A stretch of DNA of 33,942 nucleotides from Acidobacteriota bacterium (GTDB taxonomy: Bacteria; Acidobacteriota; UBA6911; JACQTF01), in assembly GCA_016210925.1 (NCBI GenBank), contig JACQTF010000154.1:1-33942 (forward strand), read 5' to 3'. Under the pieces are notes generated by a model, which saw only the letters and a list, made by a program, of their open reading frames with translations, was not told the DNA's origin and did no database searches. Below are positions 1-8,127 of this stretch, one piece after another. A program made the position numbers and the translations under genes. The stretch's first letter is position 1. Every line of letters starts with the position of its first letter.

Positions 1-107
1 CCGTGGACCAGCACGAAGCGGCGGCCCTGCCGCCAGAGCTCCGCCAGATCGTCGCAGATCGAGTCCCGATTCAAGCTCGATCCCCCGCCACATTTAATCA
101 CCCACAA
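1..107 (-). CDS. lysZ: N-terminus of [LysW]-aminoadipate/glutamate kinase (ArgB/LysZ-like), truncated by window edge
   Basis: Reverse complement reads (TTG start) LWVIKCGGGSSLNRDSICDDLAELWRQGRRFVLVHG, an amino-acid kinase N-terminus (KCGGGS). It lies directly downstream of lysW-lysX-lysY on the same strand. Not in the ORF track; start could also be GTG at 101. Confidence 0.75.
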   Translation of the reverse strand, partial: MWVIKCGGGSSLNRDSICDDLAELWRQGRRFVLVH

Positions 108-205: not shown

Positions 206-1276
206 TTAGATCGGGTGGAGGCCTGGAAACTCCAGACCTGTCCTCTCGTCCCACCCCATTCGCGCATTGAGAGCCTGGACCCCGTTGCCAGCGGCCCCCT
301 TCATCAAGTTGTCCAGGGCTCCCAGGACGACCAGGCGCCCCGACCGAGGGTCCAGCTCGAACCCCACATCGCAGAAGTTGGAGCCCGCGAGGATCTTCGG
401 CTCCGGGTACCGATAAATCCCCGCTTTGGATTTCGCCAGGCGCACGAAGAATTCTCCCCGGCAGGCCTCTCGGTAGATCTTCCAGAGGTCTTTCTCCGAG
501 AGGTCTTTCTTCAGAAAGACGTGGCTGGTGGTCAGGACTCCGCGTACCGCTTCGATGGCGGTGGCCGTGAAGTGAATGCGGGGAGGGGTGGAGCCGCATG
601 CCAATTCCTGCTCGATCTCTCCCGTGTGCCTGTGACCGGTGGGCGAGAAGGATCGGACCGCGCCGCTCCGCTCGGGATGGTGGGTGGCGAGGGAAGGCTT
701 GCCTCCCGCCGCCGAGGAGCCCACCTTGGCTTCCACGATCACCGAGTCCCGCCTGGCGACATCTTCCCGGAACAGGGGCCATAGGCTCAGAACGGCGCTG
801 GTGGCCAAACAGCCGGCGCCGGAGATGAATCGAGCCTCGCGAATTTGGGCCCGGTGCAGCTCCGGGATGCCGTAGACGAACTGGGCCAGGCGCTCCGGAT
901 CCGGATGTTCGACGCCGTACCACACGGGGTACGCCCGGGGGTCCTTCAAGCGAAAGTCGGCGGAGAGATCCACCAGGACCTCCGCCAGACCTTCCCAGCG
1001 GGAGAGGGATCCCATGGAATGGCCATGGGGCAGGCACAGGAAGAGGACGTGGCACGGGCGAAGATCGTCTTTGGAACAATAGGCAAGGTTCGTGCATCCG
1101 CGCAGGTTGGGGTGCAGGGTCGTGATGGGCTGGCCACGAAAGGTCTCCGAGCTCACCTGTTCCAACTGCACCCTGGGATGTCCCAGGAGCAGGCGGATCA
1201 ACTCGCCCCCAACGTATCCCGAGCCGCCAATGACGCTGGCTGTGATTCGATCCTTCATCCCGCACCTACTTCGCAT
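206..1276 (-). CDS. lysY: [LysW]-aminoadipate/glutamate phosphate reductase (ArgC/LysY family)
   Basis: N-terminus ASVIGGSGYVGGELIRLLLGHP, catalytic-region SGAGCLATSAVLSLWPL, C-terminal LGALDNLMKGAAGNGVQALN; adjacent to lysX/lysW. Confidence 0.9.
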   Translation of the reverse strand: MRSRCGMKDRITASVIGGSGYVGGELIRLLLGHPRVQLEQVSSETFRGQPITTLHPNLRGCTNLAYCSKDDLRPCHVLFLCLPHGHSMGSLSRWEGLAEVLVDLSADFRLKDPRAYPVWYGVEHPDPERLAQFVYGIPELHRAQIREARFISGAGCLATSAVLSLWPLFREDVARRDSVIVEAKVGSSAAGGKPSLATHHPERSGAVRSFSPTGHRHTGEIEQELACGSTPPRIHFTATAIEAVRGVLTTSHVFLKKDLSEKDLWKIYREACRGEFFVRLAKSKAGIYRYPEPKILAGSNFCDVGFELDPRSGRLVVLGALDNLMKGAAGNGVQALNARMGWDERTGLEFPGLHPI

Positions 1277-1361: not shown

Positions 1362-2234
1362 TCACGACCGCGCAGTCCTTCCGGCGGGGACGACGGCTCC
1401 CCTCCCGACGGCCAGCGTATGCTCGACGATCCGGTCCTGGATCTCCACGCCCGTCACGTCCAGGGAATTCCGAAATTCCATGGTGTAGTTGACCTCGTTC
1501 ACCAGGAGGCCTTGAGGCGCTTCCAACAAGTCGATGGCCAGGACCCCCCCGCCCACCGCCCGGGCCGCTGCCTGGGAGAGGGCGTGGATTTCCTCGGTCA
1601 CGGGACAGTGAGAAGCGGTCCCCCCTCGGGCCGTATTGGTGATCCAATGGTCCGAGCTGCGGTAGATGGCTGCGATGGTGGCGTCCCCCACCACAAAGGA
1701 GCGAATGTCCCGGCCGGGCTTGTGGATGTATTCCTGGATGTAGAAGATGTGATGATGATAACTGCCGAGCACCTGCTTGTGCTCCAGGACGGCCTCCGCC
1801 GCCTGGCGGTTGTCCACCCTGGCGAGCAGCCTTCCCCAGGACCCGACGGCAGGCTTCAGCACCGCCGGATAGCCCACCTGCTCGATGGCAGCCAGCGCCT
1901 CCAGGATGGAAAACGCCACCAGCGTGCGAGGGGTGGGCACCCCGTGACGGATCAAAGCCTGGGTGGTCAAGAACTTGTTGCCGCAAGTGTCCGCCACTTG
2001 ATAGGCGTTCACCGTAGGGATTCCCCAATCCTCGAAGATCTTCAGGGCGAACAGCGCCACCGAGTGATTGATGCATCTCTCAAGGATGACGTCGAACCGC
2101 GGCGGCGGCTGGTGCAAGTCGAAGAGAAGCTTCCGCGGGTCCAACACTTCATAGGGAATGCCCCGCTTCTGGAAAGCCTGGATCAATAGCTTTTCTTCCT
2201 TGCGGATGACGCTGGCCAAAATCCCGACTTTCAC
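1362..2234 (-). CDS. lysX: LysW ligase, RimK-like ATP-grasp (LysX/ArgX family)
   Basis: ATP-grasp protein with [38 protein letters not shown] and [14 protein letters not shown]; next to lysW. Confidence 0.9.
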
Positions 2235-2312: not shown

Positions 2313-2474
2313 TTACTCGCCCCAGTCTTCTTCCACCTTGGGCGCCGGCTCAAAGGCCAGAGGATCCACCGTGATCACCTCCAGCTCGGTGCCGCAATCC
2401 ACGCAGTGCACCAGCTCGCCCACTTCCGGCGATTCCACCGCGACCTCGGCATCGCATTCGGGACAGTTGCCCAT
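2313..2474 (-). CDS. lysW: Amino-group carrier protein LysW (53 aa)
   Basis: Hand translation of the reverse complement: MGNCPECDAEVAVESPEVGELVHCVDCGTELEVITVDPLAFEPAPKVEEDWGE*. CxxC...CxxC zinc motifs and C-terminal EDWGE are diagnostic. Below the length cutoff of the supplied track. Confidence 0.95.
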   Translation of the reverse strand: MGNCPECDAEVAVESPEVGELVHCVDCGTELEVITVDPLAFEPAPKVEEDWGE

Positions 2475-2485
2475 TCTGAACTCCT

Positions 2486-2563: not shown

Positions 2564-2603
2564 AAAATAAAAAACCTGCTGGGTAGCTGAGTGTACCAGC
2601 AGG
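2564..2603 (-). terminator. Intrinsic terminator / expression platform of the riboswitch
   Basis: Minus strand CCTGCTGG-tacactcagcta-CCCAGCAGG-TTTTTTATTTT: GC-rich hairpin plus U-tract immediately downstream of the aptamer and upstream of lysW. Confidence 0.85.
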
Positions 2604-2610
2604 CTGGCTA

Positions 2611-2850
2611 CGCGCGGGAGCGCTCCATCCTTTCCGGATGACAGTCTGCATGCTGTTCACATGCAGCCCAACAGAAGCGCCTCAAGGATGCGCCCTGTTT
2701 CGGCGATGGCACCTTTCGCCCCACACCTAACCTCTAGTCATTGGTCAACGGTCAATCGCCAAGAGTGAATTTCACGAATGACGAATGATCATTGACCAGA
2801 GGTTAGGTGCGGGGCTACTCTTTGACATCGCGCCTCTACCCACGAGCACC
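2611..2850 (-). promoter_or_regulatory. Lysine riboswitch (L-box) aptamer with enlarged P2
   Basis: Minus strand carries L-box-like core blocks: GGGTAGAGGCGCG...AAGAGTAG; GCGAAAGGTGCCATCGCCGAAACAG; CTGTTGGGCTGCATGTGAACAGCATGCAGACTGTCATCCGGAAAGGATGGAGCG. Helices by eye: P1 CGTGGG/CCCGCG; P2 CCCCGCACCTAACCTCT/AGAGGTTAGGTGTGGGG; P3 AACAG/CTGTT; P4 CTGCATG/CATGCAG; P5 CATCC/GGATG. Confidence 0.85.
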
Positions 2851-2892
2851 TTTTTAGCAACCTTGCAGAGGGGTGTCAAGGGAAAAGGCTGT

Positions 2893-6410: not shown

Positions 6411-8057
6411 AGAGGCGGCCTGCTGTCGCAGCACCGCGCGCCGGATCTTCCCCGTTTCCGTCTTGGGCAACTCCTGGACGAACTCGATGGACCGGGGATA
6501 GGCATAGGCCGCCAAGCTCTTCCGTACATGCTCCTGGAGTTCCTTTACCAGGTCATCCGAGGGCCGAGCCTCTTTCGTAAGGACCACGTACGCCTTCACG
6601 ATATGCCCTCGTTCAGGGTCCGGGCTGGCCACCGCAGCGGCCTCCGCGACAGCCGGGTGCTCGATGAGCGCACTCTCCACCTCGAAGGGTCCGATGCGGT
6701 AGCCCGCGCTGATGATGACATCATCAGCGCGACCCTGGAACCAAACGTAGCCTTCTTCGTCCTGATTGGCAAGGTCCCGGGTGTGAAACCAGGGCCCTCC
6801 GAACACCTCTTGGGTATCTGCAGGGCGTTTCCAATAACCCAACGGGTAATGGGGATTGGAGCGGGCCTTCAGGCAGATCTCTCCCACGGCTCCTGGCTGC
6901 ACCGGCTGTTCGTCCGGTCCCAGAAGGGCGACCTCCCATCCCGGCAATGGGCGCCCCATGGAGCCCGGCTTGACCTCCATGGACGGGAAATTCCCACAGA
7001 GGGGGTAACTTTCCGTCAGGCCGTAAAAGTCGAAGATGGGGATTTCCCAGACCTCCCGGGACCACCGGATGACCTCGGGGTTGAGCGGTTCCCCGGCGCT
7101 GCAGGCCACTCGCAAGTGGACCGGATAGCGCCCCGGGTCCGGGACCTGCATCATCATGCGCAAAGCGGTGGGAGTCGCGAAGAGATTTTTCACCGGATAT
7201 TTGTTCAGCAAATAAAACGCCTTCTCCGGGTCAAACTTTCCCGGGCTGTTGTAAGCGAGGACGGTTGCACCATACTTCCACGGTCCCAGGAATCCGGGGA
7301 TGATGCCGGCGATCCAGGCCCATTCCCCGGTGGACCAGAAGAGCTCGTCGCCGCGGATGTCATGGCAGAACTCCAGCTCGTTGTGGGCGAGCAAATAGCG
7401 GTGGGCGTGGAGAATGCCCTTCGCCTGCCCCGTCGTTCCCGAGCTGTAATAGATCTGGGCCGGGTCCTGGGAAGTGGTGCGCACGTCCACCTGCCGGTCC
7501 GAGGCCTGCTCCAGAAGCTCGGAGAAGCTCAGCCAGTTCCCGCTGGAACGGGGCAGGTCCACAATGACGCCCTTTTGAAGCTCTTCCACCTCCTGGTGCA
7601 GGCCGTCGAACTTTTCAAGGTTCTCCTGGTTGGTGAAAATGACCTTGGGCCCGCTGTCCAGAACCCGGTGCCGAACCCCATCCTTTCCATAAAGGGATGA
7701 AAGCGAGATGAGAATCGCGCCGGCTTTGTAGACGCCCAGAAAAATGGCTACTGCCTCAGGGAGCCTCGGCAACAAAACCACCACCCGGTCTCCTTTCCGG
7801 ACTCCCAACCCTTCCAGCAGATGGGCCACCCGGTTGGAGAGACGGCTGAAGTCCTGGAAACTCAGGACCCGGACCTGGCCGTCGTGGTTTTCCCAAATCA
7901 TGGCCGTCCGGTTGGGGTCGTGCTTCTCACACACGTCCCAGGCGATGTTGTAGTTTTCCGGGACCTCCCACCGGAATTGGTGGCACATCTCCGGATACGG
8001 CCCCGTGGTATAGCGACGGTAGTTCATGCGGATCCCCCCAAACCCGTCAAAGGTCAC
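6408..8057 (-). CDS. AMP-dependent acyl-CoA synthetase (acetyl/medium-chain type)
   Basis: Motifs YYSSGTTGQAKGILHAHR, DFYGLTESYP, WFHTRDLANQDEEGYVWFQGRADDVIISAGYRIGPFEVE, PKTETGKIRRAVLR. Confidence 0.92.
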   Translation of the reverse strand: MTFDGFGGIRMNYRRYTTGPYPEMCHQFRWEVPENYNIAWDVCEKHDPNRTAMIWENHDGQVRVLSFQDFSRLSNRVAHLLEGLGVRKGDRVVVLLPRLPEAVAIFLGVYKAGAILISLSSLYGKDGVRHRVLDSGPKVIFTNQENLEKFDGLHQEVEELQKGVIVDLPRSSGNWLSFSELLEQASDRQVDVRTTSQDPAQIYYSSGTTGQAKGILHAHRYLLAHNELEFCHDIRGDELFWSTGEWAWIAGIIPGFLGPWKYGATVLAYNSPGKFDPEKAFYLLNKYPVKNLFATPTALRMMMQVPDPGRYPVHLRVACSAGEPLNPEVIRWSREVWEIPIFDFYGLTESYPLCGNFPSMEVKPGSMGRPLPGWEVALLGPDEQPVQPGAVGEICLKARSNPHYPLGYWKRPADTQEVFGGPWFHTRDLANQDEEGYVWFQGRADDVIISAGYRIGPFEVESALIEHPAVAEAAAVASPDPERGHIVKAYVVLTKEARPSDDLVKELQEHVRKSLAAYAYPRSIEFVQELPKTETGKIRRAVLRQQAAS

Positions 8058-8127
8058 TGGTCATTGGTCAACGGTCAACGGTCAATCGTCGCGACCGTTT
8101 TACGATTGACGGTTGACCAAATGCTAA
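8052..8127. repeat. Heptad repeat with inverted symmetry
   Basis: ggtcactggtcattggtcaacggtcaacggtcaatcg ... cgattgacggttgaccaaatg. Confidence 0.8.

Follow-up and report, generated by a model that had tools for sequence, protein, structure and literature searches.

The carrier-protein (aminoadipate) route is the less common route to lysine, and the locus described here raises the question whether such a pathway can be controlled by a lysine riboswitch with a terminator, as an earlier note on this DNA had claimed, and whether the operon concerned makes lysine. Known targets of lysine riboswitches are genes of the diaminopimelate (DAP) route and transporters (PMC5584792). The window (the whole stretch of DNA analysed, 33,942 nucleotides) is an entire contig that ends within lysZ. 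The computed gene order of the operon, all on one strand, is as follows.

2481–2485, minus strand: Shine-Dalgarno sequence AGGAG of lysW, read from the sequence
2313–2474, minus strand: lysW, carrier protein of 53 aa with C-terminal EDWGE (TIGR01206, 74.7 bits, cut-off 53.2)
1362–2234, minus strand: lysX, LysW ligase of the ATP-grasp type (TIGR02144, 329.2 bits, cut-off 275.6)
206–1276, minus strand: lysY, argC family reductase (TIGR01850, 355.5 bits, cut-off 233.6)
1–107, minus strand: 5' end of lysZ, an amino-acid kinase gene truncated where the contig stops (sequence KCGGGSSLN...RFVLVHG)

The order lysW-lysX-lysY-lysZ given in the earlier note holds for the first three genes, which score above their NCBIfam cut-offs, whereas lysZ is represented by a fragment of ~107 bases at the contig end. 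The remainder of lysZ was not found in the genome, where the AA_kinase matches are only lysC, argB and pyrH. LysW has Cys pairs in addition to its C-terminal EDWGE, the solved structures nearest to the window LysX are the LysX-like chains 3vpd and 1uc8, and the window LysY is mostly 50–62% identical to LysY proteins from LysW clusters.

Upstream of lysW, a single structured RNA was identified.

2610–2846, minus strand: lysine riboswitch aptamer with five helices (cmscan, RF00168)

The match to the lysine riboswitch family RF00168 occupies 2846–2610 of the minus strand and covers model positions 1–182 of 182 with 86.7 bits, compared to a curated cut-off of 30 bits; its E-value, computed for the whole window, is 1.3e-21. 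RF00168 is the sole Rfam family above threshold in the 33.9 kb window, and this is the only match to it genome-wide. The covariance-model check proposed in the earlier note for the reverse strand thus yields a full-length match far above the cut-off, confirming the L-box core and the five helices that had been read there, with the conserved core bases present (AGAGG, GAGUA, GAAAGG, UCGCCGAA, GACUGUCA and GGAGCGCU). When aligned with 23 relatives, the aptamer forms a five-helix junction in which the core columns are invariant. Covariation, also put forward as a check, is found as compensatory changes in 24 of the 35 consensus pairs (24 aptamers, i.e. the window and its relatives), and the bit score of the window aptamer is higher than that of most relatives. 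The RNA itself is an ordinary member of its family and the novelty is the regulated pathway. For this predicted aptamer, we infer L-lysine as the ligand. Weak microRNA matches over the P2 hairpin were rejected, being below cut-off and caused by the long inverted repeat. An aptamer tree grouped the window with four homocitrate-synthase aptamers with a support of only 0.50 and was not relied on.

Around the aptamer, the following elements were found.

2851–2879, minus strand: promoter-like site, TTGACA (2879–2874), 17-nt spacer and TAAAAA (2856–2851), read from the sequence
2836–2844, minus strand: 5' strand of P1, CGUGGGUAG, which pairs with CUCCCGCG (2620–2613) in folds of successive 3' truncations
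2564–2603, minus strand: intrinsic terminator, stem CCUGCUGG/CCAGCAGG (2603–2575) and U-tract UUUUUUAUUUU (2574–2564), −15.5 kcal/mol
2580–2586, minus strand: CUACCCA, candidate antiterminator partner in the terminator loop and 3' arm (truncation folds)

The predicted transcript start falls at ~2846–2843, just ahead of P1. This promoter-like site is unlisted by a generic promoter scan because that scan demands a T at the last −10 position. The GC hairpin with a U-tract that had been noticed downstream of the aptamer is confirmed as a GC-rich stem of 8 bp (2603–2575), missed by a generic terminator scan since the loops allowed there are at most 8. Under the criteria of a stem of 8 bp or more, 5 or more GC and a minimum of 6 T in 7 positions, it is the only hairpin of its kind in the window on both strands; 40 Markov sequences of equal length gave an expectation of 0.0.

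Folding at successive lengths indicates that P1 in early transcripts (CGUGGG-u-AG) is paired with CUCCCGCG. In a transcript reaching ~2578, where the terminator is incomplete, the 5' strand of P1, UGGGUAG (2842–2836), moves to CUACCCA (2586–2580) in an alternative pairing of 7 bp. Once the terminator is complete, P1 together with the terminator is the most stable arrangement, at −136.2 versus −131.9 kcal/mol for the alternative, both energies being ligand-free predictions. Of shuffled terminators, 1.7% attain a 7-bp match with P1, and the folds make this pairing a plausible antiterminator. An earlier antiterminator candidate, in which GGUGC upstream of P1 would pair, was abandoned, since the predicted start falls inside it. 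In the computed alternative pairings, the terminator and the fold that uses P1 are predicted to be mutually exclusive, which is the expected layout of a ligand-off attenuator.

The direction of control that we infer is that of a class-typical lysine riboswitch, which would govern the lysWXYZ operon of the alpha-aminoadipate (LysW) route by transcription attenuation. At low lysine, UGGGUAG of the 5' strand of P1 would pair with CUACCCA in the terminator, allowing readthrough into lysW. Lysine bound at the five-way junction would hold P1 closed, upon which the terminator would form and transcription would stop before lysW. As this is a draft genome of 240 contigs, a chance resemblance or a misassembly joining a riboswitch to an unrelated operon was considered as well, but given the E-value above it is exceedingly improbable. 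Promoter, aptamer, terminator, Shine-Dalgarno and lysW moreover succeed each other within ~400 bases on one strand, and the same logic is found at homocitrate synthase in other genomes, as described below. The covariance model, the terminator and the gene context thus support the claim of a riboswitch and terminator controlling the LysW operon.

One part of the aptamer is unusual.

2718–2815, minus strand: extended P2 hairpin with an insert of ~82 nt, arms 80% complementary, partly a short dispersed repeat (GACCAATG-like)

While the five helices described in the earlier note stand, this extra P2 hairpin had been left unmentioned. It is near-perfect and has words in common with short repeats scattered between the genes of this contig. 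Several of the gaps, at 120–180, 2267–2300, 2486–2540 and 8055–8075, are filled by short tandem words (GACCAAT heptads and AACTGAAAACTGA-like words), and words like these also occur in the P2 insert. In addition, L2-L3 kissing is not detectable in the window aptamer, where the longest complement is 4 nt, a length that 90% of shuffles also reach; it is likewise undetectable in several relatives of the alignment. Mutations in L2-L3 are reported to lower termination, for which the interaction matters, and sequence conservation of the kissing bases is reportedly poor across the lysine riboswitch class (PMC3764141). Kissing was taken as a supporting, class-variable feature that is not required for RF00168 membership.

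An 82-nt insert derived in part from dispersed repeats, together with the lack of kissing, might indicate a decayed riboswitch, in which a repeat inserted in P2 has left the RNA unable to switch and the operon constitutively attenuated or unregulated. We consider this decidedly unlikely, as all core helices remain intact, as do the conserved bases of the core, with a score exceeding that of most relatives, and enlarged helices are also found elsewhere, namely P2 in L006 and P5 in L140, both upstream of lysC. Because the kissing bases are poorly conserved, kissing is undetectable in several relatives and L006 and L140 have enlarged helices too, the P2 insert and the undetected kissing are a caution and not a refutation of a working lysine riboswitch.

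RF00168 matches occur in 43 genomes of a phylum-wide sample of 396, and in 42 of these the match is above the cut-off. Apart from the window, all 34 riboswitches whose downstream genes were read precede DAP-route genes (L002–L017 and L126–L143, excluding the marginal L018; many stem from one family, so there are fewer than 34 independent cases). The genes that follow are lysC, or an M20 peptidase, in most cases with asd also visible. L018 was rejected as a class-mate riboswitch, since it has 23.8 bits, below the cut-off, and no lysine gene was seen downstream.

RF00168 was also found in six of 80 LysX-bearing genomes, whose LysX proteins are those most similar to that of the window. In each of these six (L116–L121), the riboswitch and a U-tract terminator lie directly upstream of the gene for homocitrate synthase, the enzyme that opens the aminoadipate route and commits carbon to alpha-aminoadipate. 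The homocitrate synthase of L116 scores 487 bits against TIGR02146 (cut-off 413.6) and those of the other five were named from the matching sequence STLREGEQF.... All six are MAGs, labelled Acidobacteria, Terriglobia, Acidimicrobiia, Ca. Versatilivorator and Chloroflexi; lysA is above cut-off in four of them and not in the other two. In three of these genomes, lysW-lysX-lysY is split from lysZ (L019:2700-4351, L020:3411-4511 and L052:7056-8726), with a carboxypeptidase-regulatory-like protein and a hydrolase-like protein encoded between lysY and lysZ.

A survey of lysW upstream regions, suggested in the earlier note, returned no further lysW with a riboswitch (core-motif scan across the 80 LysX loci); the six RF00168-positive genomes carry theirs elsewhere. 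Lysine feedback on the carrier-protein pathway, as had been proposed, is strengthened by the riboswitch and terminator before homocitrate synthase in these six genomes. Because of the DAP-gene and homocitrate-synthase contexts, RF00168 tracks lysine-synthesis genes including those of the aminoadipate route. Judged from sequence, lysine riboswitches are found on the aminoadipate route in no fewer than two phyla, going by record labels, to which the window contributes the lysW operon as a target.

The cluster had also been said to make lysine rather than arginine only. The substrate stretch of the window LysX, EFRNS, resembles EFKNS of TtLysX (VNHTMEFKNS), compared to EFKGF in StArgX (LNDVPEFKGF), and the protein is closest to Thermus-type LysX. 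Replacing Asn-Thr by Gly-Phe in the substrate signature makes Sulfolobus LysX shift from aminoadipate to glutamate (PMC10433800); in our reading of the alignment, the LysX/ArgX signature would be located in the EFRNS stretch. The genome has a separate argR-argC-argD-argF'-argB cluster (L109:2216-7145, G000:C236), the argF' of which scores as N-acetylornithine carbamoyltransferase (438 bits, cut-off 288) and not as ornithine carbamoyltransferase. Since LysX has lysine-type residues and arginine has a cluster of its own, lysine is likely the product of the operon.

These two observations speak for the claim, but no homocitrate synthase above the cut-off of 413.6 bits was found in this genome (90% complete, with the operon tail missing), nor in the searched class-mates. 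The two genome matches to the homocitrate synthase model, with 279 and 178 bits, are LeuA and a synthase-like protein on contig C9. With 178 versus 413.6 bits, the latter was rejected as homocitrate synthase. It is a DRE-TIM synthase-like protein of 462 aa (L106:6435-7820, minus strand; FDDETLRDGLQSPS) that lies below all isopropylmalate, citramalate and homocitrate synthase cut-offs, and similar sub-cut-off matches recur across the phylum. On the same contig, argH is followed by pyruvoyl-type arginine decarboxylase-like and deoxyhypusine-synthase-like genes (L106:399-5754, G000:C9), by sequence a possible bacterial agmatine/polyamine cluster. Because the assembly is incomplete and breaks inside the lysW operon, and homocitrate synthase is located within the lysW cluster in many genomes, the missing gene may lie in the lost operon tail. 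A large and a small subunit that may or may not be LysT/LysU (homoaconitase) are encoded on C154, scoring over the broad hacA_fam and LEUD_arch cut-offs but with IPM dehydratase models nearest, and the DAP-route genes lysC, asd and lysA are present in the genome.

The absent homocitrate synthase and the presence of lysA would also fit a real lysine-responsive riboswitch on a LysW operon that makes ornithine/arginine, or both, with lysine cross-regulating arginine synthesis or a bifunctional pathway; archaea do have bifunctional LysW routes (PMC10433800). Such a product is unlikely here in view of the LysX-type residues, the arginine cluster elsewhere in the genome, which includes ArgR and N-acetylornithine carbamoyltransferase, and the six LysX-bearing relatives that carry the riboswitch at homocitrate synthase. 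A lysine sensor controlling an arginine operon would also make little sense. Taken as a whole, a lysine riboswitch attenuator controlling a lysine-making lysWXYZ operon is, with good confidence, the best explanation.

Compared to the L-box of Bacillus subtilis lysC and that of Thermotoga maritima, the RNA described here has the same aptamer architecture, core and downstream terminator, but its target is lysWXYZ, its P2 has the 82-nt insert and no L2-L3 kissing is visible. The LysW lysine route of Thermus thermophilus has homologues of lysW, lysX, lysY and lysZ and nearly the same LysX substrate stretch; here, in contrast, there is probable lysine riboswitch control in a host with lysA, lysC and asd, and homocitrate synthase was not found. 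The riboswitches of L116–L121 similarly combine RF00168 and a terminator on an aminoadipate-route gene, but regulate the first enzyme of the route instead of lysW, before which none was found in these genomes. A 'lysW riboswitch' of Firmicutes and Gammaproteobacteria also lies before a gene called lysW, which, however, encodes a transporter of the NhaC type that has 11 transmembrane segments (PMC5584792) and is unrelated to the 53-aa carrier protein; the name is a trap in searches. A Caldithrix study treats LysW genes and riboswitches separately (PMC5317091). The earlier note was not aware of a published pairing, and the open-access literature likewise yielded no report linking a lysine riboswitch with the carrier protein LysW or with homocitrate synthase, although priority is uncertain.

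The operon is probably shut off by lysine through the mechanism known for the DAP route and transporters. Classic RNA feedback would thereby extend from the DAP route to an unrelated carrier-protein route, with the same effector and RNA class acting on different enzymes. More tentatively, and with somewhat more doubt than belief, lysine riboswitches may be a general feedback on the aminoadipate/LysW route in bacteria, which in two-route genomes would be confined to the aminoadipate branch, at homocitrate synthase or at lysW. Telling lysine-making from arginine-making LysW clusters is a recurring annotation problem, for which the riboswitch would offer a sequence-only marker. If such a general feedback exists, lysine would in two-route genomes halt lysine synthesis for protein while the cell wall keeps its diaminopimelate, a hint of how two-route bacteria may separate protein lysine from cell-wall diaminopimelate.
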